Origin: Neobacillus piezotolerans
GTDB lineage: Bacteria > Bacillota > Bacilli > Bacillales > Cytobacillaceae
NCBI RefSeq assembly: GCF_003362805.1
Contig: NZ_QNQT01000004.1
Span: 1 to 64,000, forward strand
Length of the DNA stretch: 64,000 nt
Reading direction: 5' to 3'
Made by a program: the position numbers and the translations under genes. The notes beneath the pieces are model-generated. The model was not told where the DNA came from and searched no databases. It worked only from the letters and a program-made list of their open reading frames with translations. This document shows, one piece after another, positions 33,794-60,752 of this stretch. Positions within the stretch are counted from its first letter, which is position 1. Every line of letters starts with the position of its first letter.

Positions 33794-35173
33794 ATGACAA
33801 AATCAATTCCAGTCCGGAAAAATGACTATATAGATGTACGATTTGAAGATTTGACCCATGACGGCGCGGGGGTCGCGAAGGTGGTCGGATTTCCAATCTT
33901 CGTCCAAGAAGCACTGCCGGAAGAATCGGGAAAAATAAAAATCATTAAAACGCAAAAAAACTATGCAATCGGCAAGCTTGTTGAAATAACCGAAAAAAGC
34001 CCATACCGGGTTGAAATCCCTGCCGGGGAATCCCATAAATACGGAGGCTGCCAGTTGGAGCACATGTCCTATGAAGGGCAGCTTAAATACAAGGAAAACC
34101 AGGTAAAGCAGGTGCTGACGCGGATCGGCAAGCTTGAAGATGTGGTTGTCCATCCTGTGCTTGGAATGGAAGAGCCGTGGCATTACCGGAACAAGGCCCA
34201 GGTACCGGTCGGCGAAAAGGACGGAAAGCTAATCGCTGGCTTTTTTAAGCCAAGGAGCCATGAAATCGTCGACACGAATGAGAGTCTTATTCAGCTTCCC
34301 GAGGTCAATGAAGCGATCAATATAGTAAAGGACATCTGCAGCCGGCTTGGCATTGAGGCTTATAATGAGCAGACCCATAAAGGCGTCCTCCGCCATATTA
34401 TGGCCCGCTATGGCAAGCAAACCGGCGAGCTTATGGTTGTCCTGATTACAAGGACACTGGAACTTCCTCATAAAACCAAGATTATTGAAGAAATTATCGC
34501 AAGGCTTCCAATGGTAAAATCGATCGTCCACAACGTTAATTCGATGCGGACAAATGTCATCATGGGGCCGCAAACAACGGTGGTTTGGGGAAATGAATTT
34601 GTCTATGACTATATTGGCGATGTTAAATTCGCCATTTCTGCCATGTCCTTTTACCAGGTCAATCCCGACCAGACAAAGGTGCTGTATGAAAAAGCGTTGG
34701 AATATACGGGGCTGACCGGCGGGGAAACGGTCATTGACGCCTACTGCGGAATCGGAACCATCTCTCTGTTCCTCGCGCAAAAGGCGGGTAAGGTTTTCGG
34801 AGTCGAGGTAGTTCCTCAGGCTATTGAGGATGCAAAACGGAATGCCGAGCTAAACGGCATCACGAATGCGGAATTCGAGGCAGGCGAAGCGGAAGTTGTA
34901 ATCCCGAAGTGGTATAAGGAAGGCAACAGGGCAGACGTCCTTGTCGTCGACCCACCCCGCAAAGGCTGCGACGAAGCGCTCCTTCAAACAATCATTGACA
35001 TGAAACCAACAAAAGTCGTCTACGTCTCCTGCAACCCGGGAACACTCGCCCGCGACCTTCGGATCCTTGAGGACGGGGGATACAAGACGGTGGAAGTCCA
35101 ACCTGTCGATATGTTTCCGCAGACCACACATGTCGAAGCGATTGCGAAAATAATTTTGAAAGAAGGCAACTAA
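33794..35173 (+). CDS. rlmCD: 23S rRNA (uracil-5-)-methyltransferase RlmCD
   Basis: RlmCD makes m5U747 and m5U1939 in 23S rRNA. The 459-residue product has an N-terminal TRAM domain (about 1-65), the G-G-C-Q-L-E-H-M segment near 85-92, the SAM site D-A-Y-C-G-I-G-T near 315-322 and the catalytic loop [12 protein letters not shown] near 413-424. Only one of the four cysteines that hold the Fe-S cluster in RlmD/RumA-type enzymes is evident. The gene is intact. Its last codons and terminator recur downstream at 45.1, 59.6 and 60.7 kb, so it marks the left edge of an accessory island. Confidence 0.95.
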
Positions 35174-35195
35174 CCCTATGGGAGTTGCCTTCTCA
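35131..35195 (+). repeat. rlmCD 3' end and terminator (repeat copy A)
   Basis: The last 14 codons of rlmCD plus the hairpin AAGGCAACT...AGTTGCCTT (35162-35191). This is the reference copy of a repeat also present at 45072-45112, 59552-59612 and 60691-60752. The most conserved core is GCGAAAATAAT followed by AAAGAAGGCAACT. Confidence 0.9.
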
Positions 35196-35401
35196 TGTTT
35201 CTTGCAATGATATTCAAAGCTGTATTTAGTGTCAATAGTTCCATCTAATTGGCAGGTTACTTTCTCAACTAATGAATTATGTAGTTGAGGCGTTAAATCC
35301 TTCCCTTGTTCAATACACATGTCCCTTAACTCGTAAGAGAGCTTACCATTACGTGCGAGACGAGACAGTTCTTTGGTTAAAATCGTTAATAATCCGGCCA
35401 T
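35196..35401 (-). pseudogene. Serine recombinase relic
   Basis: The minus-strand frame reads I-L-T-K-E-L-S-R-L-A-R-N-G-K-L-S-Y-E-L-R-D, a hallmark of the catalytic domain of large serine recombinases, and then jumps to L-V-E-K-V-T-C-Q-L-D-G-T-I-D-T-K-Y-S-F, which resembles the usual C-terminal end of these proteins. The N-terminal catalytic part with the nucleophile serine and the whole middle are missing. It abuts the rlmCD 3' end, where the integrase gene of an rlmCD-targeting element would lie. Confidence 0.7.
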
Positions 35402-35640
35402 AAAAAAGAGCCATTACAGCGGATGCTTCTTTTTCAACCTCCATTTACTTATGGAACCCCTTCTTTTTAAGGGCGCATTTCCAGATTAAGGATCTTCGTT
35501 ATTTTGCCTGAAGGGACATATTCTTGCATAATTCTAGTTAATAGGCGGCTATTTTTAAATCTTAAATAAGGTGAATGGTATTAGTATAAATCCTCAGCAC
35601 ACAGGGGGATTTTTTACCATAGGCTACAGTCACCAATATT
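35402..35640. other. Gene-free stretch between recombinase relic and bla cluster
   Basis: No supported gene. A weak hairpin CCCCTTCTTTTTAAGGG lies near 35456-35473. Confidence 0.4.
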
Positions 35641-35641
35641 C

Positions 35642-35692
35642 TTTATATATATGGACCTTCTTGCTATAATAAATACTACATTTGTAAAAGTA
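35642..35692 (+). promoter_or_regulatory. blaI promoter with BlaI operator
   Basis: TGCTATAAT (35662-35670) is an extended -10, with TTTATA near 35642. TACTACATTTGTAAAAGTA at 35674 matches the TACTACA...TGTAGTA form of BlaI/MecI operators with one decayed half. BlaI would repress its own operon from here. Confidence 0.7.
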
Positions 35693-35703
35693 GGAGGGGG
35701 ATC

Positions 35704-36090
35704 ATGAAGGAGATTCCACAAATATCAGAAGCAGAATTTGAAGTGATGAAGGTTATATGGCAATATGAGCCGATTTCAACTCCTGAGGTAGTTGAGAAAT
35801 TATCGAATAAGAGTGATTGGAAGCCAAATACCATTCACACCATGCTGGCCCGCCTAGTTAAGAAAAAGGCTTTGCATTCAAGAAAAGATGGCCGAGTGTT
35901 TATTTATACTTCACTGGTTGAAAAGCACGAATATGTTGAGCAAAAAAGTAAATCCTTTCTAAAGCAGTTTTTCGGCGGTACGTTAAATTCAATGGTATTA
36001 AATTTTATTGAAAATGATCAGTTATCGAATGAAGATATTACCGAATTAAAGAAAATCTTATCCAAGAGAGATAAGAAAGGGGAAAAATAA
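35704..36090 (+). CDS. blaI: BlaI/MecI family repressor
   Basis: The 128-residue product is a winged-helix repressor of the penicillinase type: I-S-E-A-E-F-E-V-M-K-V-I-W near 7-19, the recognition segment W-K-P-N-T-I-H-T-M-L-A-R-L near 38-51, and a C-terminal dimer helix pair. BlaI dimers bind TACTACA/TGTAGTA sites until cleaved after BlaR1 activation. AGGAGGGGG precedes the ATG. Its stop shares a base with the blaR1 start, so the genes are coupled. Confidence 0.93.
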   Translation: MKEIPQISEAEFEVMKVIWQYEPISTPEVVEKLSNKSDWKPNTIHTMLARLVKKKALHSRKDGRVFIYTSLVEKHEYVEQKSKSFLKQFFGGTLNSMVLNFIENDQLSNEDITELKKILSKRDKKGEK

Positions 36091-37886
36091 TGGATAACAT
36101 GCTGCTACGGATTTTAGTCAGCACAATTGTGGTATCCCTCCTTATCTTCATCATTCTATTAATCAAAAAGCTATTAAACAATCATATGACAGTGAAAGCA
36201 CATTATCATATTTGGTATTTGCTTTGCATTCCTGTCCTTACTGCCTTTTTACCTTGGAATTATTTTCGCCTTGGAGAAGGCATTCGCTATTTAAAAAGCT
36301 TACATTTTTTTCACAAAGAAGCGCCATTCTACAGTAAGAGGATGAATGGAGTGGATGCCTCTCAGGCACCAAACAGTGATTTATTACATGATTTCACCGT
36401 TTCAGTAAACAAGTCAACGCCCGATTTTGTCTACCATACATTATTTACAGTTTGGTTCATTGGGGTGGCTCTTTTTGTTGGGGCTGCTGTTTTTTCAACT
36501 TACAAAATCTATAAAATCAGGAACTCTGCTGTGGCTATTGATGACCAAAAGCTAAATAACCTATTAGAAGCGTGCAAAGAGATGGTTGGGGTGAAAAGAA
36601 ACATAAGGTTACGGGAGACCTCTATGATTTCCTCGCCAATCACGTTCGGGATTTTTCAGCCCTATATTTTTTTACCAAGCAAAACGCGGGAAGAATTCTC
36701 GTTAAATGAATTAAAATACGTGCTTATGCACGAGCTTCACCATCATAAAAGCAAAGATCTGTTCGTGAATTACGTCATGTGGATGTTTCAGATTATTTAT
36801 TGGTTTAACCCGGTCGTCTGGTATGCTTCAAAAAGGATTCGAATCGATCGGGAGTTGGCCTGTGATGCTTCCGTTTTAAATCTCTTGGATGAGAGCGGAT
36901 ATATCGAATATGGGCATACCATCATTCGTTTCGCAGATAAAAAATATGATAGCACCCTTAAACAGATTGCTCCAGGTATAGGTGGGACAAATAAACAAAT
37001 CAAACAAAGAATCCAATTCATTGCAAGCTACTCAAGAGATTCTCTAGTTTTGAAATGGAAAAGCAAGGTTATCTGTGCTGTTTTAGGAATTGTTTTGCTA
37101 TTCCTTGCTCCAATCACCAACGTTATTGCCAGCCCAAATGATGTGTATCAGTTTAGCGGGAAGAATGCGGTCTATGAAGATTTAAGCTCCTATTTTAAGG
37201 ACACCAAGGGGAGCTTTGTTTTATATGATCCCTCTAAAGACCAATATCAAATATATAATCGAGAGATGAGTGAACAGAGGATTTCTCCTGATAGTACTTA
37301 TAAAATATATTCTGCCGTATTCGCATTGGAATCCAATGTGATTTCCCCGAATAAAAATAAACAGGTTTGGGATGGAGAAGTTTATCCTTTTTCAGAATGG
37401 AATCAAAATCAAAATTTAGAGTCCGCCTTAAGCCGTTCCGTGAATTGGTATTTCCAGAATACCGATCGGGAGGTAGGAAGGAAGCAACTGCAAGATTATT
37501 TTCACAAGATAAAATACGGGAATGAGGATCTTTCCGGGAATTTGGATAATTACTGGATGGAATCTTCTTTAAAAATATCACCCATTGAACAAGTCCAATT
37601 ATTATACAAATTAGAAGAAAATCAATGGGGGTTTAAAGAAGAAAATATCAAAGCAGTAAAAAAGGCACTTTTAATAGATGAACAAAGGAATGGGCGGTTG
37701 TACGGTAAAACGGGAACCGGCATGGTTAATGGAAAGAATGTAAACGGCTGGTTTATTGGCTTTGTCGATAAAGGTGATGATCGTTTTTATTTTGCCATTA
37801 ATATTCAAAATAAGGATGGTCAAGCCCAGGGAAGTAAGGCTGCAGAGATTGCCAAGCAGATCCTGCATCATAAAAAGATATATTAA
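36090..37886 (+). CDS. blaR1: Beta-lactam sensor/signal transducer BlaR1
   Basis: The 598-residue product has N-terminal membrane segments, an M56 zinc-protease domain with H-E-L-H-H near 214-218 and R-E-L-A-C-D near 253, a further membrane segment near 325-345, and an extracellular penicillin-binding sensor domain with S-T-Y-K (near 406-409), the S-V-N box and K-T-G-T-G near 542. Acylation of the serine by a beta-lactam switches on the protease, leading to BlaI loss. All key motifs are intact. The ATG overlaps the blaI stop. Confidence 0.95.
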   Translation: MDNMLLRILVSTIVVSLLIFIILLIKKLLNNHMTVKAHYHIWYLLCIPVLTAFLPWNYFRLGEGIRYLKSLHFFHKEAPFYSKRMNGVDASQAPNSDLLHDFTVSVNKSTPDFVYHTLFTVWFIGVALFVGAAVFSTYKIYKIRNSAVAIDDQKLNNLLEACKEMVGVKRNIRLRETSMISSPITFGIFQPYIFLPSKTREEFSLNELKYVLMHELHHHKSKDLFVNYVMWMFQIIYWFNPVVWYASKRIRIDRELACDASVLNLLDESGYIEYGHTIIRFADKKYDSTLKQIAPGIGGTNKQIKQRIQFIASYSRDSLVLKWKSKVICAVLGIVLLFLAPITNVIASPNDVYQFSGKNAVYEDLSSYFKDTKGSFVLYDPSKDQYQIYNREMSEQRISPDSTYKIYSAVFALESNVISPNKNKQVWDGEVYPFSEWNQNQNLESALSRSVNWYFQNTDREVGRKQLQDYFHKIKYGNEDLSGNLDNYWMESSLKISPIEQVQLLYKLEENQWGFKEENIKAVKKALLIDEQRNGRLYGKTGTGMVNGKNVNGWFIGFVDKGDDRFYFAINIQNKDGQAQGSKAAEIAKQILHHKKIY

Positions 37887-37939
37887 TAATAAACCCCAGA
37901 AAGCATTTCACTACCTTTTTGGGACTTTCTTGGTTTAAA

Positions 37940-37955
37940 TACTACAATTGTAGTG
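37940..37955. promoter_or_regulatory. BlaI operator after blaR1
   Basis: TACTACAATTGTAGTG differs from a perfect dyad at one end only. It lies about 50 bp past blaR1 and about 255 bp before the next pair of sites. Confidence 0.65.
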
Positions 37956-37979
37956 TTTGTTATTAACTTTCACACAAAT

Positions 37980-38182
37980 TTCCCAGTATGAAAGGGCTGA
38001 TGTGTTTTGAAGCAGAAAAAGCAGAAAATCTGGATAACCTGCCGGGTGTGGATGTCTCGAATGATTGGAAGAGGGGCCGAACCTATGGGGAAACGCATCA
38101 CAGTGCCGCTGATATCATCAGCCATCGGGTTTTCCGGGTATATTTTGACATTAATAAAAAAGGACAGCCAACTACAAAATGA
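37980..38182 (+). other. Stretch with two ambiguous small frames
   Basis: A 64-codon frame (37988-38182) has no convincing ribosome binding site. An overlapping frame from ATG 38083, preceded by GAGGGG, would give 33 residues with a hydrophobic centre (V-P-L-I-S-S-A-I-G-F-S-G-Y-I-L-T-L). Neither is recognised. The stretch lies between two sets of BlaI operators and may be a remnant of a former bla-operon gene. Confidence 0.3.
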
Positions 38183-38242
38183 TTGACATCTATTTACTAC
38201 AAGCGTAGTATTAATTGTGTAATAAATACTACATATGTAGTA
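38183..38242 (+). promoter_or_regulatory. Beta-lactamase promoter with two BlaI operators
   Basis: TTGACA (38183-38188) and TAGTAT (38206-38211) are 17 bp apart. The dyad TACTACAAGCGTAGTA (38195-38210) overlaps the -10, and the perfect palindrome TACTACATATGTAGTA (38227-38242) follows near +10 to +25. Both match the BlaI site well. Confidence 0.85.
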
Positions 38243-38413
38243 TTTTCTGCGTAATTTACTATTACGTATGTAATCAAATTGGAGAAAGGAGGACATTATC
38301 TCCCAGCATTTTTAGAATCTGCTGGTTGTGAGCCGATCGGTGTTAATCTAAACATAATGATTAAACCCGCTGATTCTATTTTCAGGACAGCTAAATATTA
38401 ATAGAAAGAGGTT

Positions 38414-39352
38414 ATGATTTTGAAGAAAACACATAATATTTTCAGTATGAATAATTTTATATTTGCTCTGCTTGTGCTAGTGGTTGCAATTGTACCCCTC
38501 GCTGGCTGGTCGATGAGCACCTATAACCATTCTGACAAGCCCGAAAATACAGTCGTGAAAACACCAGCACCCCAATTACACCGTAAGTTCGCAGAACTCG
38601 AGAACAAATATGATGCCCGTCTCGGAGTCTACGCCATCGATACAGGTACAAACCGGAAAGTCTCTTATCGGCCTCAAGAGCGGTTCGCTTACGCATCTAC
38701 TTACAAAGCTCTAGCAGCAGGTGCATTGTTGCAGCAATACTCCATTGATCAACTTGACGAGTTGGTCACATACAACAGCGAGGACATCGTTTCGTATTCA
38801 CCCGTAACACAACTTCACGTAGATACCGGGATGACTCTTGGGGAAGTTGCCGAGGCTGCTGTTCGATATAGCGACAACACTGCAGGAAACCTTTTATTAG
38901 AGAAACTGGGAGGACCTGAGGGATTTGAAACAGCACTGAGGCAGATTGGCGATCGCGTTACCCAGGCTGATCGCTACGAGACGGATTTGAACTCAGCTGT
39001 TCCTGGAGACAAACGTGACACCAGCACACCCAAAGCACTTGCTACAAGCCTCCAGGCTCTCGCAGTCAGCGACTTGCTCCCAACTGAAAAACGTACGATC
39101 CTAACAGATTGGATGCGGGGAAATGCAACTGGAGATACATTGATTCGTGCTGGTGCACCAACAGGCTGGGAAGTCGATGATAAGAGCGGGGCGGGAAGCT
39201 ATGGAACGCGGAATGACATTGCCATTGTTTGGCCGCCGAATAGAGCTCCCATTGTCATCGCAGTTCTATCCAGCCGCGATACACAGAATGCCACCTTTGA
39301 CAATACGCTAATCGCAGAAGCTGCAAAGGTCGCACTTAACGCCCTGAAGTGA
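38414..39352 (+). CDS. bla: Class A beta-lactamase
   Basis: The 312-residue product has an N-terminal hydrophobic signal (about 12-34) without a lipobox, then the class A motifs: active-site S-T-Y-K near 95-98, S-D-N near 154-156, the omega-loop E-T-D-L-N near 190 and K-S-G in place of K-T-G near 258. It hydrolyses penicillins and related drugs outside the cell; the spectrum cannot be read from sequence. A TTG at 38420 gives better spacing from GAGG and is an alternative start. The gene is richer in GC than blaI/blaR1, so it may have a separate origin although two BlaI operators control it. Confidence 0.93.
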
Positions 39353-39389
39353 ACAGATAAATAAATTTACGCATCACAATAGTCGAATG

Positions 39390-39436
39390 AAAAAGCTGAT
39401 GAGTTTACCATTTATAACTCATCAGCTTACATTTTA
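39390..39436 (+). terminator. Terminator after bla
   Basis: AAGCTGATGAGTT at 39393-39405 pairs perfectly over 13 bp with AACTCATCAGCTT at 39416-39428, then ACATTTT. Confidence 0.8.
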
Positions 39437-39520
39437 AAATCTATCTAATGTTATATCCATGTTTATGCTGGAAGTAACCTTATAGCACTACTATTTCTCT
39501 TAATTCCCCTTAAAAATCTT

Positions 39521-39782
39521 TTAGTTATTACAGATCATTAACACATTTCCATCCAAATCTTCAAAGTTAAAATTAACAAAATCCCCAATTCGCTCAACTT
39601 CTTTCACAATGGTGATACCCCTATTTTTCACAAATTGGTACGCTTCATCGATATCCTTGACGAAAAAAATTAAACAGAACATGATTCGAGGGTTTTAATG
39701 TAAAACCCGGATTAAAAGTGTGATCATCTAAAGTTAGTCCAGTTTCAGAGGTAACAGGGATGTTGTAAACAGGAGATTCAAC
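39521..39782 (-). pseudogene. Glyoxalase/VOC family fragment with frameshift
   Basis: On the minus strand one frame reads L-D-D-H-T-F-N-P-G-F-T-L-K-P-S-N-H-V-L-F and breaks at a run of seven T; the next frame continues with F-V-K-D-I-D-E-A-Y-Q-F-V-K-N-R-G and ends F-E-D-L-D-G-N-V-L-M-I-C-N-N, the typical C-terminal half of a VOC protein. The upstream part is replaced by a dehydrogenase fragment at about 39783. It is broken both by the shift and by truncation. Confidence 0.7.
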
Positions 39783-40136
39783 CTTGGATGGCTTGGTGCT
39801 CCGGGAATGAGCGTTTATGTAGCGTCGAAACACGCTATTGTCGGGCTTACAAAATCCGCAGCTTTAGAAATGGCGTCATATGGCGTCCGCGTAAATGCTG
39901 TGGCTCCGGGCGCTACAAATACAGAGATGATGCGTAGTATTGAAAGAAATGCAGTTGGCGAAGAACACGCTGAAGAAGCACAAAAAGCATTTGCGGCTGC
40001 TGTTCCAATGGGGCGCTATGCTACTCCGGAAGAAATCGCGGATTTGATGGTATTCTTAGGTTCTGAAAAATCCAGGTTCATTGATGGAACGATGGTTCGT
40101 ATCGATGGCGGCATGTCCTCCAATTCAGCACAATAA
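39783..40136 (+). pseudogene. Short-chain dehydrogenase, 5'-truncated
   Basis: About 118 codons remain, starting L-G-W-L-G-A-P-G-M-S-V and including the active-site Y-V-A-S-K, V-N-A-V-A-P-G, and the C-terminal D-G-G-M. The Rossmann half with the NAD(P)-binding glycines is missing. The closest relative in the window by eye is the SDR at 45593. A terminator follows at 40255. Expression from the internal ATG 39807 would not give an active enzyme. Confidence 0.8.
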
Positions 40137-40254
40137 ATTATTAAGTGCTCGCCCGGTTTGTTTTTGTTCCCTGGAATTCTGTTTTTTAGGGTATTTAAAT
40201 ATTCATTTATTAACCAAACAATTTTTTGTAGGCAACCTTTTATGGCGAAGAAAG

Positions 40255-40285
40255 AGGTCCATTCTTAAAAGAATGGCCTTTTTTC
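40255..40285 (+). terminator. Terminator after the truncated dehydrogenase
   Basis: AGGTCCATTCT pairs, with one bulged base, with AGAATGGCCT, followed by a T-run. Confidence 0.7.
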
Positions 40286-40506
40286 TTGTCTTTAACAGTA
40301 AAGATGACGAAAACGCCCCTATAACGGCGCCGTTATCGTTATCAAGTGATTCTGCCGTCCTCAAGCAGAGTATACTGGGATATATTTCTTCCCGCCCTTC
40401 CTTAAATCTCGCTTCATATGGGAAGACGATTCGAAGAGCTACCTGTTTTCAACAATTCACCCCCGATCCTTCCGGTCTTAGGCATACTATCGATGATCAA
40501 ATATAT

Positions 40507-40524
40507 TATCTCAAATTCGAGATA
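40507..40524. promoter_or_regulatory. MhqR-like operator
   Basis: TATCTCAAATTCGAGATA, arms TATCTC and GAGATA around six bases, closely resembles the MhqR box of B. subtilis (TATCTCGAATTCGAGATA), which controls quinone-stress genes. TTGACA follows at 40531. It lies 100 bp before the dehydrogenase gene at 40624. The protein that binds is inferred. Confidence 0.6.
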
Positions 40525-40623
40525 CTTTAATTGACAATATATTAATATAGGATTACTCTTAAGGTGTTCACAAATAATTCACATATTTTTAGGTTAAATT
40601 ATAGAACAATGGAGGGATTTAAC

Positions 40624-41367
40624 ATGACAAATTTACAAGAAAAAGTAGCGATTATAACAGGAGGAGCTTCTGGAATTGGACTAGCCACTGTAAAAGCGTT
40701 TTTAGAAAAAGGGGCAAAAGTTGTAATCGCTGATTACAACGAGGAAGCAGGACTATCAGTAGAAAAAGAATTAAAAGAAACATATGACAATGTATTATTC
40801 GTAAAGGTAAATGTCGCCGAGGAGAAAGAAGTCGAAGATCTAGTATCTAAAACGGTTAATCATTTCGGTAAATTAGATATCATTTATAACAATGCTGGAA
40901 TTGGGATACAAAAGCCATCCCATGAAATGACAGCAGAAGAATATAAAAGAGTAATTGCGATTAACCAAGAAGGTGTCTTTTATGGCGCAAAGTACGCCAT
41001 TCGGGAAATGTTAAAAACCGGTGGAGGTTCTATTATTAACACTTCTTCTATCTTAGGAACGGTCGGAGAACCAAATGCGCTTCCATATGCTGCAAGTAAA
41101 GGTGCTGTTAACCTAATGACTAAATCATTGGCGTTGGAATATGCGAATCGTAATATTCGCGTAAATGCGGTTGCCCCTGGTTTTATCGAATCCGGTTTAG
41201 TTAACAAAGAGGCTTTGGGAGATTTTTATGATGGTTTAGTCGCTAAGCACCCAATTGGCCGCTTAGGAAATCCGGAAGAAATTGCTCATGCAGTTGTTTT
41301 CCTAGCTGAAAATGACTTTGTTACAGGTACAACTATTCATGTTGATGGTGGATATACGGCAAAATAA
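40624..41367 (+). CDS. Short-chain dehydrogenase/reductase (SDR)
   Basis: The 247-residue classical SDR has the cofactor motif T-G-G-A-S-G-I-G near 13-20, N-N-A-G near 90, the catalytic Ser (T-S-S) and Y-A-A-S-K near 157-161, and a C-terminal D-G-G-Y. An acidic residue after the second strand (A-D-Y-N) suggests NAD rather than NADP. ATG 40624 is preferred over 40564 because GGAGGG lies upstream. It is followed by a second SDR and probably shares its transcript, under the MhqR-like box. Substrate unknown. Confidence 0.88.
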   Translation: MTNLQEKVAIITGGASGIGLATVKAFLEKGAKVVIADYNEEAGLSVEKELKETYDNVLFVKVNVAEEKEVEDLVSKTVNHFGKLDIIYNNAGIGIQKPSHEMTAEEYKRVIAINQEGVFYGAKYAIREMLKTGGGSIINTSSILGTVGEPNALPYAASKGAVNLMTKSLALEYANRNIRVNAVAPGFIESGLVNKEALGDFYDGLVAKHPIGRLGNPEEIAHAVVFLAENDFVTGTTIHVDGGYTAK

Positions 41368-41425
41368 CAGGAAAAAATATGAGAGAAATCTTCTAACTTA
41401 ATAATTAAAAGGAGGAAATGTCAAA

Positions 41426-42169
41426 ATGGGAAAATTAGACGGTAAAGTAGCAATCATTACTGGTGCAGCTCAAGGGATGGGAGCAATGCACGCCCGTAAA
41501 TTTGTTGAAGAAGGGGCAAAAGTCGCCATTACGGATATCAATCTTGAAGCAGCTCAGGCATTAGCTAATGAAATCGGTGAAAATGCTGTCGCGTTAAAGC
41601 TAGATGTTTCAAATGCTGAAAATTGGAAAGAAGTTGTAGAAAAAACGGAAGAACTATTTGGACCAGTTACAGTATTGGTAAATAATGCCGGAGTCGGTAT
41701 TTTCAAACCTCTTGAAGAACTAACAGAAAAAGACTTCAGATTAACATTTGAAATAGATGAATTAGGTGTATTTTTAGGAATGAAAACAGTCGTTCCATCT
41801 ATGAAGAAAGCTGGAGTCGGTTCAATTGTAAATATTTCATCAGTTGATGGACTAGTTAGCGCACCAACGGCCATTGCCTACAGTGCATCCAAACATGCTG
41901 TTACTGGGATGACGAAAGGTGCTGCTGCAGAACTTGGTCAACACAATATTCGTGTTAACTCTGTTCACCCAGGAATTATTAAAACTCCAATGGCTGAACA
42001 AGGTGATGTTGCTGAGTATCTAAAACAACTTGAACAAGACATTCCATTAAGAAGAAGAGCCGAAGTATATGAAGTATCTAATTTAGTTATTTATCTTGCT
42101 TCTGAGGATTCCAGTTATTCAACTGGAGGACAATTCGTTGTTGACGGCGGTATGATCTCAGATTTGTAA
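41426..42169 (+). CDS. Short-chain dehydrogenase/reductase (SDR), second of pair
   Basis: The 247-residue product has T-G-A-A-Q-G-M-G near 13-20, N-N-A-G near 87, catalytic Ser (I-S-S) and Y-S-A-S-K near 152-156, and C-terminal V-D-G-G-M. T-D-I-N after the second strand suggests NAD preference; the pattern resembles 3-alpha/20-beta-hydroxysteroid dehydrogenase-type SDRs, but no substrate can be assigned. AAAGGAGG precedes the ATG. It follows the first SDR by 58 bp and a strong terminator ends the unit. Confidence 0.88.
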   Translation: MGKLDGKVAIITGAAQGMGAMHARKFVEEGAKVAITDINLEAAQALANEIGENAVALKLDVSNAENWKEVVEKTEELFGPVTVLVNNAGVGIFKPLEELTEKDFRLTFEIDELGVFLGMKTVVPSMKKAGVGSIVNISSVDGLVSAPTAIAYSASKHAVTGMTKGAAAELGQHNIRVNSVHPGIIKTPMAEQGDVAEYLKQLEQDIPLRRRAEVYEVSNLVIYLASEDSSYSTGGQFVVDGGMISDL

Positions 42170-42185
42170 ATGAAGATGACCTTCT

Positions 42186-42234
42186 AAGAGGCTGTCCCAA
42201 AAGTAACCCTTTTGTTGACAGCCTCTTTTTTTTA
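42186..42234 (+). terminator. Terminator after the SDR pair
   Basis: AAGAGGCTGTC at 42186-42196 pairs with GACAGCCTCTT at 42217-42227, with an inner CAAAAG/CTTTTG stem, then eight T. Confidence 0.85.
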
Positions 42235-42730
42235 GAAATGATTTTTTTCTGGGAAAGCCTTAGCAAAAAGAAACAATGAGCCTATGCGAATCTATATTGC
42301 TAAAAAAAAGCATTGGAAGATCTATAAGTAATATTGAAACCCTTCATTCTTAGTTGATGGAGGGCTGTTTTTTTGTAAACTCACCAAGCAACCCATGTGT
42401 TGTCACATACACACCACACATGTTGAGTGTGTTACATGGTTTAGTTTTGAAGGTGAATAAACTAAATTATGCATGACAACAGTGTATGAAAGGATTGCTA
42501 CACTGGTCGTCATGCATCTTTTTTTTGAGAATATTCTTTGAAACAAGAAAACTCGGGGGAGTTTCAGGCACCAACTATTTTCATATTGCTCATATCTTAT
42601 GACTACTTCGTGATGAGCAGTCTTAAAGGGACCTTTAAATCAGCTCTTTGTTCCTTTTAAACCCAGCCTTTCGTATCCCAGTGCCCGATATGATACGATA
42701 GTAAAAAACAGTAAACAGAAGTGAGGAACT
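42235..42730. other. Gene-free stretch with two orphan terminators
   Basis: No gene is supported. Two further terminator-like hairpins occur: CCCTTCAT/ATGGAGGG at 42340-42364 with seven T, and ATGCATGAC...AGTGTA/TACACT...GTCATGCAT at 42469-42517 with eight T. A short dispersed hairpin repeat lies at 42389-42428. Terminators without genes suggest that genes were lost here. Confidence 0.6.
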
Positions 42731-45058: not shown

Positions 45059-45071
45059 TGTGTGGCAATGC

Positions 45072-51259: not shown

Positions 51260-51298
51260 ATTGAAGGTATGGCACTTGGCAGCGTCCCTGCTAAAGAC

Positions 51299-51356: not shown

Positions 51357-51399
51357 TTAAGAAAAGCTTTATTTATTGATTTAAATAGGAGTGTTTTAT

Positions 51400-53760: not shown

Positions 53761-53818
53761 ACTTATTACTTCTCGTGTAATCAAAATATAGTAGATAGAT
53801 CTTTTGACTGTAAAACAT

Positions 53819-53856
53819 AAGGTACAACTAGTAATAATATTAGTTGTACCTTTTGA
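53819..53856. terminator. Bidirectional terminator between oxidoreductase and M3 peptidase
   Basis: AAGGTACAACTA at 53819-53830 pairs perfectly with TAGTTGTACCTT at 53841-53852, with T on both outgoing strands. Confidence 0.85.
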
Positions 53857-53911
53857 ATTGAAAACTTCCAATTTTCCTCTGCGAAGAATCGTCTACAGTC
53901 CTTCCGCTTCG

Positions 53912-55609
53912 TTAATGAGTGTCTTGAATGACTTTTTCCAGGAATTCACCCATACGCTTAACAGCCTGTTCTGAAAAATCAAAACTGACCCCAGTTTCTT
54001 TATAAATAGCTGCGATGGATTGATTGCAGTCCGCACTTGCCCCTTTTTTAAAGGATTCGACAGCTTGATCTGGATTTTCCCGGTAGTTTTCAAGTATTTG
54101 AAGAGCCCCCAGCATAGCGATGCCGTAATCTATCGTATAGAAAGGAAAATGGAAATAATGAATGGTGTCTGCCCAACTCATCCCCACTTCCTCCTCAAAC
54201 CCAGAAGTATCCACAGGGTTTAAGCCATAACGTTTTGAGATTTCAAAGAACTTTACATCACGCTCTTTGGCAGTGTGCGCAGGGTTCGTATACATCCAAT
54301 GCTGGAAGAGATCACCGGTTAACGGTTTTAATAACATTGAAAAAGCCCATCTTAGTTCTTCGCGCTGTACGCTCTTGAAATCTTCTTTTTCTGGATAAAA
54401 ACGATCTAACTTATCCAATAAGAGCAATTCCATCCCAAAAGAATACAGTTCAGCAACTTCCATTCGTAATTGGTATTCTTCAAAAGGCCCGTGTTCCGAA
54501 AACTGAAGGTACGCATTCACCGCATGGCCCATTTCATGAATCAATGCGCTTAGTGAATCAAAGGATGGACTAAAATTCGCAAAAACAAAGGTATCCCCTG
54601 AAACAGGTAAGAAGGTACAGAAAGCACCTGGGCCTTTTCCTTTCCGATCTCCAAGATCTAGTAACCCATGCTCCCCCATGTGATCGAAACACTCTCCAAA
54701 ATATGGGTCGGTCTTCCGTAACATTTCGGAAACGCCATCCAAAAGAGTAGATTCTTCGGAGTATGGCGGGTTTGTCAACAATTTAGCGGTGTTATCCCAA
54801 GGGCGATAAGTATCAACCCCAAGTTTGGACTTAAAGACATCTGCTAGTCGATTCCATGCTGGGACAATATGCTTTTCCACATTTTCATGAAAGTCATAAC
54901 AATCTTGAACACTATACTCGCGATTTTTGGCAACAAACATATAATCGCGGTAATTTTCAAAGCCTGCATTTAAAGCAATTTGATGGCGTAGTTGAACAAG
55001 TTCGTCCATAATGGTATCAATTTCGGGCTTAATCGCTCGATGGGCTGACATCATGGCGTGATAAGCTTTTTCTCGCACCCCCCTATCAAGGAGATCGAGC
55101 TTAGATTGGATGGATGGATAAGGCTTTTCCTCTCCTTCCCATTCAACTGTTAACCCTCCCATAATTTCACTATACTTCGTACAGAGCTCCTGTTCTTTTA
55201 CCATTAATGGAATGTTTTCTTCCCTGAACAGTTTAATTTTTGACTCGCGAAAGCGCCGCATTAAGCCGTAACGGTTTTCATCTAATTGATTTATATAAGG
55301 AGACTTGCAGCATTTCTCATTTAATTTTGCTTCATATTTCATTATGATTGGCTGGATGACCTGCTGGTCGTGAAGATAAATTGATTTGATATCCGCATCT
55401 TCAGTGTTGCGGTAGAAATCGACTTGGTGGCCTGTCATCGCTTCCTGGATTTTAATCATTAAATCCTTTTCATCTTTCAACCACTTTTCCAGGTCAGAAA
55501 TGGATTCGATCGGAACCTCAAGTAAACTTGAAAATTGAGCTTCGACCCCTTCAGCATCTTGTAAATCAATTAATTCTTTATAATAACTATGATCTATATC
55601 TTGTGTCAT
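53912..55609 (-). CDS. M3 family oligoendopeptidase (PepF-like)
   Basis: The 565-residue product has the zinc-protease motif H-E-M-G-H in A-L-I-H-E-M-G-H-A-V-N near 356-366 and the downstream helix with E-V-A-E-L-Y-S near 390. No signal peptide is present, so it acts on peptides in the cytoplasm. ATG 55609 fits AAGGGAGAG; an upstream in-frame ATG at 55630 overlaps that site. It is a single-gene unit. Which peptides it cuts cannot be told. Confidence 0.9.
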   Translation of the reverse strand: MTQDIDHSYYKELIDLQDAEGVEAQFSSLLEVPIESISDLEKWLKDEKDLMIKIQEAMTGHQVDFYRNTEDADIKSIYLHDQQVIQPIIMKYEAKLNEKCCKSPYINQLDENRYGLMRRFRESKIKLFREENIPLMVKEQELCTKYSEIMGGLTVEWEGEEKPYPSIQSKLDLLDRGVREKAYHAMMSAHRAIKPEIDTIMDELVQLRHQIALNAGFENYRDYMFVAKNREYSVQDCYDFHENVEKHIVPAWNRLADVFKSKLGVDTYRPWDNTAKLLTNPPYSEESTLLDGVSEMLRKTDPYFGECFDHMGEHGLLDLGDRKGKGPGAFCTFLPVSGDTFVFANFSPSFDSLSALIHEMGHAVNAYLQFSEHGPFEEYQLRMEVAELYSFGMELLLLDKLDRFYPEKEDFKSVQREELRWAFSMLLKPLTGDLFQHWMYTNPAHTAKERDVKFFEISKRYGLNPVDTSGFEEEVGMSWADTIHYFHFPFYTIDYGIAMLGALQILENYRENPDQAVESFKKGASADCNQSIAAIYKETGVSFDFSEQAVKRMGEFLEKVIQDTH

Positions 55610-55872
55610 GGATAACTCTCCCTTCCTCATTATTATTTGAATTATCTTAATATTTATATTATAGATTTCTAGATAGTAAAACTAGCTTTTTCAAAAATAT
55701 CAACAGGATTTAATTCGTTGTGAAATCCCTAAATGTGAATTATCCTAATATAAGAAGATGTAAATATTTTGAATAGCTTGGGGCAACTTCGCCTCCGGTG
55801 TCACCTAAAGGCTCGGCTATCAATGATTTTCTTTTAAAAATTTACGTAGATTGGGATAAATGGAGAATTTCT

Positions 55873-57174
55873 ATGGTGGACTTAATAAGCCAATTAATTT
55901 GGCGGATGTGCATGATTGTTACAGTTGCCTTTTTGATTACCCGGCTAAAACTCTTTAGGCAAATGATTTACCATCGCTTAAGCTACAAAGGCAAAATGAT
56001 TATGATCATAGTATTTGGTTTGTTTGGAGTTATAGGAAATTATGCGGGAATCGAGGTCCATCCTGAAATTCCTAACCTGGCCCCTGGAGATGGGGATCAG
56101 GAAGAAACCTTTAAAGCAATTGCGGATATTCGGAATATCGGGGTAATTATTGGCGGTCTGATAGGCGGTCCGGTTGTCGGCTTTGGGGCCGGGGTAATCG
56201 CGGGAGGCCATCGGTATCTTTTAGGCGGTTTTATTAGTACGGCCACGTTTATTTTAACTGTATTAGGCGGATTGATAGCCGGTTTTATTGGCAGAAAACT
56301 CACCTTTAATGAAAAAATGCAGCCACCTTTAATTTTCGTGTTAAGTGTCTTAATCTTATTTATGCAAATTATCTTAGTCCCTGTACTTGCCAAGTCCCAT
56401 TCCGTAGCTTTTCAATTAATTCAATATACTGGATTACCCATCATCATTGTAAATGGAATTGGGATATGGATTTGCGCATTAATTTTTTATAGCGTAATTC
56501 GTGATGAGGAAAAAGTAGTAGCGAAGATGAGGGCGCTGCAAGCCCAAATTCAGCCCCATTTTCTGTTTAATTCTATAAATGTAATCTCTGCCCTTTGCAA
56601 AAGGGATCCAATGTTTGCGAGATCTCTGCTGCTGCATTTAAGTACTTTCCTGCGTAATAATACGAGTGCTACAAATCAAACTTTGATACCGATCGAAAAG
56701 GAAATAGAAACAGTGAATGCCTATTTCTCATTGGAACAAGCCCGATTTCCAGAGCGGTTTCACCTTAGGGTCACGATAGAACCGTTTGTAAATCAGGCGT
56801 TAATTCCTCCGTTTACAATACAACCCATTGTTGAAAACGCGATCGTTCATGGGTTTTCAGAAAGATGTGAACAGGAAACGGTGGAAGTAACGATTTGCAA
56901 AGAGGGGAAAAGGTTCCTTCGAATTTCCATTAAAGATAATGGCAATGGAATAAATAGCGATAGATTAAACCTAATAGGGAGTAAATCCATCCCATCAAGT
57001 AAAGGGACGGGGATTGCGATATCAAATATAAGGGAGAGACTTTCTTTAGCATTCGGTCCGAAAGCACAATTTTCGATAGAAAGCCAGTTAAACATGGGAA
57101 CAACCGTGACGATCATTGTCCCACTTCAGTATGAAAGAAAGGAAAATTTGAATGATAAGAGCCTACGTGGTTGA
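55873..57174 (+). CDS. LytS-type sensor histidine kinase
   Basis: The 433-residue protein has an N-terminal 5TM-LYT type region with about six membrane segments (about 3-210; G-N-Y-A-G-I-E-V and the G-G-P-V-V-G-F-G-A-G-V-I-A-G-G-H-R-Y block), the His_kinase domain with the phosphorylated histidine in Q-P-H-F-L-F-N-S-I-N near 232, and a C-terminal ATPase with N-A-I-V-H-G and D-N-G-N-G. ATG 55873 has GGAG upstream. The 23-nt overlap with the next gene shows a two-component operon. LytS kinases of this kind sense pyruvate or cell-wall/membrane state. Confidence 0.9.
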   Translation: MVDLISQLIWRMCMIVTVAFLITRLKLFRQMIYHRLSYKGKMIMIIVFGLFGVIGNYAGIEVHPEIPNLAPGDGDQEETFKAIADIRNIGVIIGGLIGGPVVGFGAGVIAGGHRYLLGGFISTATFILTVLGGLIAGFIGRKLTFNEKMQPPLIFVLSVLILFMQIILVPVLAKSHSVAFQLIQYTGLPIIIVNGIGIWICALIFYSVIRDEEKVVAKMRALQAQIQPHFLFNSINVISALCKRDPMFARSLLLHLSTFLRNNTSATNQTLIPIEKEIETVNAYFSLEQARFPERFHLRVTIEPFVNQALIPPFTIQPIVENAIVHGFSERCEQETVEVTICKEGKRFLRISIKDNGNGINSDRLNLIGSKSIPSSKGTGIAISNIRERLSLAFGPKAQFSIESQLNMGTTVTIIVPLQYERKENLNDKSLRG

Positions 57175-57898
57175 GGATGAGCTGTTTGCAAGAGAAGATC
57201 TTAAGGACATACTTTCGCAAAGTAATAAAATAGAGGTAGTAGGGGAAGCTGATGGAATTCACAAAGCCCATGTCGATATTCAACAATTGGAACCGGACGT
57301 GGTTTTTTTAGACATCCATTTGGCAAATACAAATGGTATTGAATTAGCTGATAAACTACGTTCATTAAAGAATCCGCCATTTATTGTTTTTGCGACAGCT
57401 TTCGAAGAATATGCAGTAAAGGCTTTTGAACTTGATGCCGCGGATTATATATTAAAACCATTTGATGAAAAAAGAATCGAACGAACAATTGATAAAATAG
57501 TAAAGTGGTATCAATTGAAAAAAGAAGAAAGTCGACAACAGCGTGCAAATCATGGAACTCAAAACCTAAATTTAAATAAGCTGCCTGTTGTAAAAGATGA
57601 CCGTATTATCCTGATTGACATACAGAACATTTTTTACTTCGGTACAGAAAATCGCCATGTATTTGTAAAAACAGTAGATGATAAATATGACATTGATACT
57701 AATCTATATGAAATAGAAAAAAAGTTGGAGAATTATTCTTTTCTTAGGGTGCATCGAGGATGTATTATCAATCTCCAATATGTAAGTGAAATAGAACAAT
57801 GGTTTAACGGTACCTATAATATAATACTTTCCGATGGATCTAAATTACCTGTTAGTCGCTCATATGCAAAAACAGTGCGCCAATACTTAGGTTTTTAA
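57152..57898 (+). CDS. LytTR-family response regulator
   Basis: The 248-residue protein has a receiver domain (acidic pair E-D at 8-9, phosphorylated Asp in V-F-L-D-I-H near 54, Lys in L-K-P-F near 103) and a C-terminal LytTR DNA-binding domain (F-L-R-V-H-R-G-C-I-I-N near 203-213). AAAGGAAAA precedes the ATG inside the kinase gene. It most likely controls the MFS transporter gene 300 bp downstream, as LytS/LytTR pairs often control adjacent transporters. Confidence 0.92.
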   Translation: MIRAYVVEDELFAREDLKDILSQSNKIEVVGEADGIHKAHVDIQQLEPDVVFLDIHLANTNGIELADKLRSLKNPPFIVFATAFEEYAVKAFELDAADYILKPFDEKRIERTIDKIVKWYQLKKEESRQQRANHGTQNLNLNKLPVVKDDRIILIDIQNIFYFGTENRHVFVKTVDDKYDIDTNLYEIEKKLENYSFLRVHRGCIINLQYVSEIEQWFNGTYNIILSDGSKLPVSRSYAKTVRQYLGF

Positions 57899-57928
57899 TC
57901 AATTGCAATTGAAAAAGAATTTCTTTTA

Positions 57929-57957
57929 AAACTGACAATTATTTTGTCGGTTTTTTT
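57929..57957 (+). terminator. Terminator after the response regulator
   Basis: AACTGACAA pairs with TTGTCGGTT (one wobble), then a T-run. Confidence 0.7.
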
Positions 57958-58065
57958 ATTTTAGAGAATTTGAGTTTTCAAGTCATTATTATGCTTCCTT
58001 TCTTATGCATTCCAGCACGTTGCGGTAGGTAAATACCATCAGACTCTGTTTCATTCGTATCCGTA

Positions 58066-58079
58066 TGAAAGCGCTTTAT
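58066..58079. promoter_or_regulatory. cre-like site (CcpA)
   Basis: TGAAAGCGCTTTAT resembles the catabolite-responsive element TGWAANCGNTNWCA, with two mismatches at the 3' end. It lies about 120 bp before the MFS transporter gene, suggesting catabolite repression. Confidence 0.5.
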
Positions 58080-58194
58080 ATCGGATTTCTTGCATTTCGT
58101 AATGACTTTATCAAATGTAATTCCTTATTTAGTAATATTTAAAGGAAAAGTAAACGTATTATCTTAGTTACTCAAAGTACAAGGGGGTATTTTG

Positions 58195-59496
58195 GTGAGC
58201 GATGTATCATTGGCACAGCCAAAGAAAAAATGGAAAGTCCGTTATTCTGTTCTTTTAGTTTTATGGTTATGTTGGTTGTTTTCATTCCTCGATCGTATGG
58301 TGATTACCATTGCCTTGCCATTTATCGGTGAAGATTTAAACTTAAGTAAAACAGCACAAGGACTATTGATAAGTATGTTCTTTGCTGGCTACGCTTTGTT
58401 CCAGATACCCGGCGGAATGCTGTCCGATAAATTTGGTTTCCGGCGTGTAGTAAGTGTGGCGATTATATGGTGGTCGATTTTTACATCATTAACAGGATTT
58501 ATTTTTGTTTACCCTCTATTCCTATTGGTTCGTTTTGTTTTTGGATTAGGTGAAGCCTGTTTACCGGGTGGGTCATACAAAGCGATTGCGACTTACTTCC
58601 CGAGTAAGCAGCGTGGTACAGCAACAGGAATTCAATCAACGGTCAATACACTTGGACCTGCTGTTGCAGCAATAGCCGCTGCTGCAATCATTGGTTTATA
58701 TGGATGGCGTGTTGTCTTTATTGTAATGGGTATTCCGGGTCTTCTAATCGGGATTTACATTTGGTTCAAATTTAAAGACAATCCAAAAGATCATCCTAAA
58801 ATAAGTAAAGAGGAACTTGCGGAGTTAGAAGAGGATAATCTGCAGCAAGAGTCTCATGGGAAAAAGAAATCTGATGTATCCCTTAAGGAGCTATTTAAAA
58901 AGCCGATTTTATGGCAAATGGCCCTAATATGGTTTTTCTTTGATATTACATTTTGGGGTTTCACATCCTGGCTTCCTTCTTATTTAATTAATGAAAAAGG
59001 CCTCTCGTTAATGGATACAGGTATCTATAGTGCATTACCATATTTAGTAGGTACCGTCGCAATTGTTCTCGGCGGGTATATTTCGGATAAAATGAAAGCA
59101 AATAGAAAATGGGTATTTGTCCCGAATGCACTTGCTGGCGGGGTTGCTTTATATTTTATGTTCCAAGCTCAGTCATTAACAGCGGTAATTATTTTCCAGT
59201 GTCTGGCAGCATTCTTTATGTTTATGGCCCAAGGGGGATTCTGGGCCCTTGTTGTTGACAGTTTTTCTGCAAAAATTATGGCATCCGGTTCTGCAACGGT
59301 TAACTGCTTCGGATCGATTGCTGGTTTCATTTCTCCTTTCCTGATGGGTTACCTGATTGATACAAGCGGTTCCTACAATTCTTCTTTCATTTTGATGATT
59401 ATAGCTTTAGTAATTGCAGCTATTATCGCACTTACTATTTCTGGGAAAACTGAAGATGGACCTGTAAATCTAACTTCTAAACTTGGGACTAATTGA
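58195..59496 (+). CDS. MFS transporter, anion:cation symporter (sugar-acid) type
   Basis: The 433-residue protein has about 12 membrane segments and ACS-family motifs: W-L-F-S-F-L-D-R-M-V-I-T near 22-33, the loop D-K-F-G-F-R-R near 77-83, and R-F-V-F-G-L-G-E-A-C-L-P-G-G near 109-122. Relatives carry glucarate, galactonate, hexuronates or other organic anions. GTG 58195 is a better distance from AAGGGGG than the TTG at 58192. A LytS/LytTR pair upstream and a cre-like site suggest induction by its substrate and catabolite control. Confidence 0.87.
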   Translation: MSDVSLAQPKKKWKVRYSVLLVLWLCWLFSFLDRMVITIALPFIGEDLNLSKTAQGLLISMFFAGYALFQIPGGMLSDKFGFRRVVSVAIIWWSIFTSLTGFIFVYPLFLLVRFVFGLGEACLPGGSYKAIATYFPSKQRGTATGIQSTVNTLGPAVAAIAAAAIIGLYGWRVVFIVMGIPGLLIGIYIWFKFKDNPKDHPKISKEELAELEEDNLQQESHGKKKSDVSLKELFKKPILWQMALIWFFFDITFWGFTSWLPSYLINEKGLSLMDTGIYSALPYLVGTVAIVLGGYISDKMKANRKWVFVPNALAGGVALYFMFQAQSLTAVIIFQCLAAFFMFMAQGGFWALVVDSFSAKIMASGSATVNCFGSIAGFISPFLMGYLIDTSGSYNSSFILMIIALVIAAIIALTISGKTEDGPVNLTSKLGTN

Positions 59497-59517
59497 ATGG
59501 TTGATAAACATTCCAGC

Positions 59518-59544
59518 AACCCATGTGTTCCCACATACACTCGG
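59518..59544. repeat. Third member of the short dispersed hairpin repeat
   Basis: AACCCATGTGTTCCCACATACACTCGGG-type sequence, sharing its left half with the copy at 42389 and its right half with the copy at 47978. It lies 7 bp before copy C of the rlmCD end. Confidence 0.65.
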
Positions 59545-59551
59545 GACATCA

Positions 59552-59612
59552 CGAGGATGCTGCGAAAATAATAGTAAAAGAAGGCAACTACCCATTGGGC
59601 GTTGCCTTTTGT
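59552..59612 (+). repeat. rlmCD 3' end with terminator, copy C
   Basis: The frame H-E-D-A-A-K-I-I-V-K-E-G-N matches the RlmCD tail, and AAGGCAAC...GTTGCCTTTT repeats the rlmCD terminator with more T. It is in the same orientation as rlmCD. Confidence 0.85.
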
Positions 59613-59681
59613 GTTTTTTTAACGGATTTACAAAGCTTATTAAATATACTCCGAGATGCACCCAAGAAGCTAGCAGCAAAG

Positions 59682-60350
59682 TCATGGTTTTAACAGTTTC
59701 CAATTCCCTTCGGATACAACTTCGACTTCTCCATCAATTACTTTGATGGCGGTTTGATCATCAATTGCATACGCCGGCCCCTGCATCCCGGCAGCCCATT
59801 TCTCAGCATTAGCCATCGTATTATACGGCAGCATTTCGTGATCCAGATGCGGGAACATTGCAAAATCGACCATACCAAGCGTTTCATCACCACCGTTGGG
59901 TGGAGTCCAGCCAACGAAGAATTCCCCAATGTTGGGTGCCATCACCATGCTCCCAGCACTCATTCCCACATAGACAGCGTTCAGCGATGGCAAGAGGTCT
60001 GCCAGCCCGGATTGCCGCATCCAGTGGCACAGGTAGAGGGCGTCACCGCCCGATACCAGCAGGACGTCCGTCTCCCGGACCAGCGGCACCCAGCGGGCTT
60101 CGTCGATGCTTGGTAGCGCTGTGAGCTCCAGCACGCCGACCGACTTCCAACCCAGATTTACCATGGGATTCTGTTCTTTCCCGCTGATGAACTCCCAGGT
60201 TTTGACGCCGGGGCCGACCCAAGGATGTCCGTACATCGCGGTGGGGATGCACAGAGCGCTAGACTCGGCAATCGGTTTGTCCAGCATGTCAACCAACGCG
60301 TCATGTATGCTTTTATTATTGACGCCTGCAGCTGTAAGCAGTAATTTCAT
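59682..60350 (-). CDS. S51 family peptidase (peptidase E-like)
   Basis: The 222-residue product has the class I glutamine amidotransferase-like fold of peptidase E with the nucleophile elbow G-M-S-A-G-S (Ser-131), V-S-G-G-D near 99-103 and a C-terminal D-Q-T-A-I block. The family cuts Asp-X dipeptides or related small substrates. AGGAGGAG precedes the ATG. It is markedly richer in GC than its surroundings and is the only gene between rlmCD-end copies C and D, which points to recent transfer. Confidence 0.87.
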   Translation of the reverse strand: MKLLLTAAGVNNKSIHDALVDMLDKPIAESSALCIPTAMYGHPWVGPGVKTWEFISGKEQNPMVNLGWKSVGVLELTALPSIDEARWVPLVRETDVLLVSGGDALYLCHWMRQSGLADLLPSLNAVYVGMSAGSMVMAPNIGEFFVGWTPPNGGDETLGMVDFAMFPHLDHEMLPYNTMANAEKWAAGMQGPAYAIDDQTAIKVIDGEVEVVSEGNWKLLKP

Positions 60351-60690
60351 AACTCAACTCCTCCTCTTCGTATGCGTTTTACTTAATTCTTCAGACTTTT
60401 CAAATGTGGTTGCGGATGTCTAGTGGGACAGCTATGCCGGTATAGCCAAACTGACCCGAAATTATAGTCGGTCTATTAGACCCTTTTTCTTTATTGGTAT
60501 GCAGCTACATGCTGTAGTTAAATGTTAAAATCAGGGTGCAGTAGAGTCAAGGTGAAAATCTGAATATTTTGTAATTTTAATAGAGCAAAATGGACATTCG
60601 TTATCGTTTTGGCTTTTGATATTCGAAACTACTATGTTATAGGTGTCTTTACATTTTAAAAATATCAAATGTGCATGCATATTAGGCAAT
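60351..60690. other. Gene-free stretch before copy D
   Basis: No supported gene is seen. The segment is AT-rich with no clear promoter or terminator. Confidence 0.4.
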
Positions 60691-60752
60691 AGCGAAAATA
60701 ATTTTTTAAAGAAGGCAACTACTCCTTTGGACGCTGTCTTTTTTGTGTTTTA
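60691..60752 (+). repeat. rlmCD 3' end with terminator, copy D
   Basis: GCGAAAATAATTTT followed by AAAGAAGGCAACT repeats the rlmCD end almost exactly, and the decayed terminator (AAGGCAACTACTCC...GGACGCTGTCTT then T-run) follows. It is the right-most copy. Confidence 0.8.

Follow-up and report, generated by a model that had tools for sequence, protein, structure and literature searches.

Behind the gene rlmCD of the bacterium Neobacillus piezotolerans (RefSeq assembly GCF_003362805.1), we identified a region that is very probably a cassette array, built at the 3' end of rlmCD by repeated and reshuffled site-specific integration by serine recombinases. We analyzed positions 1 to 64,000 of contig NZ_QNQT01000004.1 (the window), and we compared it to seven other genomes of the same genus and to 193 genomes of the family (genomes are denoted by G and a number, and G000 is the genome of the window). 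The window contains four copies of the 3' end of rlmCD, which we call A to D. In appearance, these copies are half-sites from the attachment (att) sites of serine recombinases, within an array of cassettes that follows rlmCD.

Copies of the rlmCD 3' end and other sites in the window

As the initial annotation of the window had reported, the four copies are all in one orientation: they lie at 35147, 45088, 59565, and 60696 on the + strand, with spacings of 9941, 14477, and 1131. When aligned with the other sites, copies A-D have the codons and the core in common. In the 4.5-Mb genome, we found the 13-mer AAAGAAGGCAACT six times and its reversed control not once. The six occurrences are copies A-D and the two strands of one hairpin at contig 90926. 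This hairpin (G000 contig 31, 90926-90963) is outside the window and adjoins a 783-aa gene; it lacks RlmCD codons and looks like an ordinary terminator. The 11-base core GCGAAAATAAT by itself is weak evidence, hardly above chance: with up to one mismatch, we found 7 matches in the window (3.3 expected), and 3 of 100 shuffles reached 7. Its exact matches in the window are at A, C, and D and at 36259 on the opposite strand; copy B is not exact.

Displaced sites of class I have the approximate consensus CCAGCACCCCATGTGTTGCCACATACACTCAACACATGTTGAG, followed by a right arm. By inspection, several sites contain the dyad CACTCAACA-CA-TGTTGAGTG, exactly or nearly. The rlmCD codons that correspond to the site are ACACATGTNGA. 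Given this symmetry, the crossover is predicted to be at the CA. The repeat is more than the native end of rlmCD: recombinase-bearing elements carry their own version of it. We scored sites with position weight matrices (PWMs). The first tail PWM was trained on 11 rlmCD ends, whose own scores are no evidence, and its few minus-strand matches, at 12-14, were treated as noise. The class I PWM was built from displaced sites and was checked by leave-one-out on the 15 training sites, of which 14 scored 28.3 to 57.9. The PWM maximum in reversed sequence (four stretches) was 13.4.

A terminator hairpin had been described at copies C and D. By the fold test, C does have a hairpin (z = -2.91), and the one at D is weak (z = -1.43); the strongest is at A (z = -4.71), and B has none (z = -0.55). 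Copy B lies directly behind an AAA ATPase gene and lacks a class I arm; among A-D, only C has this arm. Beyond these copies, the window contains a full att site at 42418 (PWM score 55.9) and a core-less arm at 47975-48010, and there is a further site past the window, at contig 69100 (PWM score 40.4). The initial annotation had divided an island at 35131..60752 into three segments. Its spacings hold; because of the site at contig 69100, the island extends beyond 60752. The features of the region are:

33794..35173, +: rlmCD (rumA/RlmD family), the target gene, whose 3' end is the first att half-site, copy A (TIGR00479 rumA, 559.4 bits; cut-off 183.55)
35128..35191, +: copy A, with att core ACATGTCGAA, the last rlmCD codons, and the terminator hairpin (rlmCD alignments to G006, G001, and G003 end at 35136)
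35174..42383, +: segment 1, with blaI, blaR1, a class A bla type gene, and SDR genes (Pfam)
42384..42440, +: att site with class I arm, core at 42418, and the start of its own right arm (PWM score 55.9; 51.2 when left out of training)
42731..45058, +: AAA ATPase gene, common to G001, G003, G004, and G006 in different surroundings (Pfam AAA)
45069..45112, +: copy B, a decayed right half-site with neither arm nor hairpin (alignment, fold test)
45593..47876, +: SDR gene and diaminopimelate dehydrogenase (DapDH) gene (Pfam)
47975..48010, +: core-less class I arm in the gap between the DapDH and FdhD genes, a decayed att site (repeat family D4; G004 has a full site, at 17155, between the same genes)
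48397..59496, no strand assigned: FdhD, MFS, MpsC, molybdopterin oxidoreductase, M3 peptidase, LytS/LytR-type pair, and MFS (Pfam)
59512..59609, +: copy C, with class I arm, core at 59546, right half-site, and hairpin (PWM score 47.5; 38.9 when left out; fold z = -2.91)
59682..60350, -: peptidase S51 gene (peptidase E-like), with an att remnant before it both in the window and in G004 (PF03575, E = 6e-18)
60678..60740, +: copy D, a decayed right half-site with a weak hairpin (alignment, fold test)
60766..62485, +: ECF-type sigma factor and its DUF4030/DUF4179 partner, which the island still includes, with the next site at contig 69100 (Pfam)

Two other repeats involve the SDR genes. A 27-base inverted match (25/27 bases; 45124-45150 and 46581-46607) surrounds the SDR gene between the AAA and DapDH genes, and the stretch between its two halves is absent from G006; copy B may thus belong to an inverted repeat that encloses a small insertion. 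Also, two SDR genes contain a 71% direct repeat (40617-40733 and 45586-45702).

The C-terminus of RlmCD and sites in the same genus

In the eight genomes of the genus, the C-termini of RlmCD are shared up to ...QTTHVE (in seven genomes) or QTVHCE (in G007), and then the tails diverge. Divergence after approximately ...HVE is as site-specific exchange would leave it. At the nucleotide level, the alignment ends between -4 and +28 of the C of the core CA in 24 of the 28 pairs of rlmCD genes, and it continues through the tail in the other 4. That is, rlmCD changes at or just behind the core, with tails that are partly related and a break whose position varies by pair.

We then considered the stretches behind rlmCD in the seven other genomes (39-40 kb each, or 15 kb for G001). 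Six of the seven have class I or class II matches (scores above 16), and all of these are on the strand of rlmCD. G006 has eight sites in a row, including the end of rlmCD itself. In G007, an rlmCD tail is kept, and the ~37 kb behind it are free of class I and II sites. Element-free relatives had been put forward as a check on the idea of integration, and G007 is consistent with it. Class I sites (scores above 17) are also found behind a paralog of rlmCD: four each in G005 and G007, one in G003, and a weak one in G006. Across seven genomes of the genus, there are 20 att-bounded segments, of 288 to 12206 bases.

Cassettes with shared genes in different orders

Shared genes appear in different orders and with different neighbors in G000, G001, G003, G004, and G006. 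The shared set comprises the AAA gene; the DapDH gene; the block of FdhD, MFS, MpsC, and molybdopterin oxidoreductase; the S51 peptidase; a 758-aa ABC protein; Dus; and the sigma factor/DUF4179 pair. After dropping alignments of under 150 bases and merging ends within 60 bases of each other, we found that 15 of 46 right ends of the alignments were at sites, whereas 2000 circular shifts gave 0.92 on average and 7 at most.

In relatives, the cargo includes defense systems. Among these are a type I restriction-modification system in G004; in G006, a match to GajA followed by a UvrD-type helicase (Gabija), as well as a GmrSD-type protein; LmuB in G138; and a match to LmuA/ThsA in G113. In G006, a 2.8-kb class I cassette (14794-17576) carries the gene for a 474-aa protein in which DUF4062 and phage-integrase domains are both present (L025:16102-17526).

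Small genes whose products begin with MDNND or with MIHTY/MLHTF recur in several genomes beside class I sites or rlmCD (L180, L175, L063, L155), and these look like a single travelling cassette. At L176 and L179, two genomes have a class I arm joined to the same further sequence, next to 483- and 366-aa genes; for the gene pair at L179, Pfam gave no match at E = 1e-4.

Serine recombinases at the rlmCD junction in other genera

A large serine recombinase is encoded in none of the 20 att-bounded segments, and none of the PF07508 matches listed for the eight genomes of the genus is within the islands behind rlmCD or the paralog. In other genera, we found recombinases at the junction itself. At least 32 of 58 recombinase matches, from 30 genomes, are convergent with and within 1 kb behind either rlmCD (at least 15) or its 45%-identical paralog (at least 17). 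Among these 32, 26 are just 14-51 bases from rlmCD or the paralog. The positions of target genes were taken from listed rows only, and some of the remaining 26 of the 58 matches, counted as elsewhere, may adjoin an unlisted gene.

Five of the junction genes, in G037, G117, G116, G067, and G164, encode Resolvase, Recombinase, and zinc-ribbon domains. The extra genes behind the junction genes in G037 and G164 have one or two of these domains absent or barely visible, and the junction gene of G025 is broken, with an open piece that lacks Resolvase. In the phylogenetic tree, the class I recombinases of G067, G164, G127, and G114 form a supported clade (61-83% identity). There are also supported pairs for class II (G037 and the second gene of G116, 76% identity) and class IV (the first gene of G116 and G025, 53% identity). 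A piece from G118, which was outside the tree, is 72-77% identical to both members of the class II pair. Between clades, identities are ~30-54%.

The arms beside these recombinases are of class I at G114, class II at G037 and G118, and class IV at G116 and G025. We tested co-occurrence with 29 junction genes, omitting three pieces (one from G020, two from G038). A class I arm was found within 25 kb and on the right strand for 4 of the 12 class I junction genes (G114, G094, G072, and G020, at distances of 7 to 21 kb) and for 0 of the 17 others. The best case is G114, in which the paralog's tail ECISQLILKKGN is followed by an open recombinase gene, two more recombinase genes in pieces, and, 9.2 kb on, a class I site. 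The stretch from recombinase to site is probably one element. The corresponding stretches of G067, G164, and G127 reach the end of the contig before any class I site.

The window's genome has two PF07508 genes of its own, which we rejected as the agent. One is 28-29% identical to rlmCD-adjacent recombinases (three best matches listed), and the second has no match to them at E = 1e-20.

Distribution of the class I arm

Allowing at most one mismatch, we found the class I arm in 87 of the 193 family genomes; the reversed pattern has one match in all 193. The arm occurs at 148 places, of which at least 41 are within 40 kb downstream of rlmCD and on its strand, and at least 29 are so placed relative to the paralog (at least 70 together). 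Within 40 kb of the listed target genes, no arm lies on the opposite strand or on the wrong side.

Two plasmids of Priestia megaterium have a site that is 78.3% identical to a class I site of G004 (L164:6390-6457 and L165:12001-12068), and no recombinase is annotated within the displayed stretch of PLSDB's incomplete table. We also considered carriage by phages and rejected it: there was no match in phages, and a 26-base pattern has no exact match in viral_contigs.

Proposed mechanism and alternatives

We propose that a large serine recombinase of the class I clade would act on the site of a circular element, with an arm of approximately GTGTTGCCACATACACTCAACA-CA-TGTTGAG and a right arm. Its partner in the chromosome would be the conserved rlmCD codons ACACATGTNGA. 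With each insertion, rlmCD would obtain its new last dozen codons and its terminator from the incoming element, and the former 3' end would come to lie beyond the element, after its arm. Through repeated insertion, with exchange and loss between the repeated sites, a row of cassettes would arise that are mostly read in the direction of rlmCD. We infer the CA crossover, the order of these events, and a class I recombinase as the maker of the window's sites.

This agrees with much of the initial annotation, which had invoked site-specific integration at the 3' end of rlmCD by serine recombinases, now supported by the scars and by the junction recombinases of relatives; the rightward displacement of older 3' ends and the accessory nature of the cargo are supported as well. 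It had also envisioned simple stacking. Integration does appear to have been repeated, but simple stacking does not account for the differing gene orders in five genomes, the sites past 60752, or the sites at the paralog in other species. A later loss of mobility genes is one option: the cassettes may be stripped elements, or they may always have moved in trans; both fit the lack of large serine recombinases in the 20 segments.

Several observations weigh against our proposal. Copies B and D have no recognizable arm, and a G003 site at 16181 did not pass the test for the class I arm (-34.7), which is why it was excluded from class I. The breaks in rlmCD do not fall at one sharp base: 6 of the 28 pairs break at exactly +7, and others at -4 or at +8 to +28. 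For left ends of the shared-gene alignments, the association with sites is only weak (4 of 43, P = 0.02). At E = 1e-40, the class I recombinase has no match in the eight genomes of the genus, as compared to 47 of the 193 family genomes, so its action at the window's sites can only be inferred. Of the class I junction recombinases, 8 of 12 lack a class I arm (up to one mismatch, within 25 kb on their own contig, and some contigs end early). G117 and G135 share a class III arm, yet their recombinases do not form a supported clade, and that of G117 is as close to the one of G037 (54%). We saw no excised circle. The initial annotation had noted that repeats far from rlmCD would count against integration, and there are such repeats: the hairpin alone recurs without RlmCD codons, and for 78 of the 148 class I arms, no listed target gene lies within 40 kb (some may adjoin a target gene outside the listed rows), which also argues against a strict rule. 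We examined 18 of these loci and found no target gene at any of them; 16 of the 18 have a PWM match above 20, with the core lost in some. Thus, some of the arms have a different history: long islands, broken contigs, or other sites.

Homologous recombination between the repeated tails could have shuffled an ordinary variable region, with no site-specific enzyme after a founding event. The tails have ~40 bases in common and could pair, the gene orders do vary between genomes, and the rlmCD breaks are spread from -4 to +28 instead of falling at one base. Nevertheless, we consider it unlikely: the sites have arms with dyads that are unrelated to rlmCD, recombinases sit at the same junction in 30 genomes, and class I arms track one recombinase clade. 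We give still less credence to the idea that the copies are a common transcription terminator that was reused behind several genes. Two observations would fit: the hairpin at contig 90926 has the 13-mer of the copies on each strand and lacks RlmCD codons, and 26 of the 193 family genomes contain the hairpin pattern. However, the homology continues upstream of the hairpin into the codons, copy B has no hairpin, and a 34-base arm is present at 42418, 59546, and 69100. We therefore rejected a terminator-only repeat for copies A-D (homology into the codons; arm at C) and retained it for the one at contig 90926. Construction of the array by a tyrosine recombinase is about as improbable: the DUF4062/phage-integrase protein of G006 might be taken as a candidate, but it is the sole such gene among the 20 segments, the 7 matches in the window's genome are all on other contigs, and it is serine recombinases that occupy the junction in relatives.

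Comparison to known systems

That rlmCD or rumA is a target for integration is already known. The gene rumA is the target of streptococcal integrative and conjugative elements (ICEs) with serine integrases, which alter the C-terminus of the target (PMC4701971), including in group B streptococci (PMC10044541); prophages of Listeria are found between rlmCD and fosX (PMC8386393); and the staphylococcal cassette chromosome (SCC) and its enterococcal counterpart (ECC) use serine recombinases to enter the 3' end of a gene for an rRNA methyltransferase (PMC6222049).

The rumA ICEs resemble our system in the family of the target gene, the single adjacent serine integrase, and the changed C-terminus of the target; they differ in being whole conjugative elements, whereas here we see short, mostly recombinase-free, stacked cassettes, and the paralog is used too. 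We did find 3' integration in rumA/rlmCD with a changed C-terminus. A serine integrase with Resolvase and Recombinase domains is at the junction in relatives and is absent from the window and from the islands of the genus. No conjugation module was found among the 20 open reading frames of the window that were scanned with Pfam (the elements of relatives were not searched). The Listeria prophages similarly insert directly behind rlmCD, and some carry resistance genes; unlike our array, they are prophages, and stacked arrays do not appear in the passages of the source that were at hand (PMC8386393).

The nearest architecture is that of SCC and ECC (PMC6222049): as in our system, an rRNA methyltransferase gene receives the insertion at its 3' end, the recombinases are of the serine type, several attR sites follow one another and contain dyads, and the cargo includes restriction-modification genes. 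In our system, several attR-type sites with dyad symmetry occur in a row (eight in G006). In contrast to SCC and ECC, which target rlmH, the targets here are rlmCD and its paralog (both of the rumA family), and the core is CACATGTNGA instead of TATCATAA; the latter is absent from both strands of all 25 site windows from the genus. Also, the recombinases are far below the cut-offs for Ccr: against CcrB, the class I recombinase scores 95.8 bits and the class II recombinase 126.3 bits (cut-off 900), and the rlmCD islands of the genus contain no PF07508 match.

Integrons rely on a tyrosine integrase and attC sites, not on the att sites of serine recombinases. Like integron cassette arrays, the region behind rlmCD has a row of small cassettes at a single chromosomal entry point. 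No PF00589 match, as expected of a tyrosine integrase, was found on the window's contig (there are 7 elsewhere in the genome).

In a literature search, judged by titles and the beginnings of abstracts, we did not find a stacked, mostly recombinase-free array at rlmCD in Bacillaceae. In Bacillaceae, the array parallels the staphylococcal cassette chromosome at another rRNA methyltransferase gene, and several related clades of recombinases use one short core. With the arms as borders, defense and resistance genes that are borne on cassettes can be located in many genomes; the recombinases, together with their sites, are candidate integration tools. More tentatively, Bacillaceae might load traits much as integrons do, with a few recombinase-bearing elements acting in trans to place recombinase-free cassettes (for defense, resistance, or metabolism, each with a class-specific arm at its end) in the 3' ends of rlmCD and its paralog, where the cassettes would be shuffled between species. 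Since there are many recombinase-free cassettes with good arms, movement in trans is directly testable.

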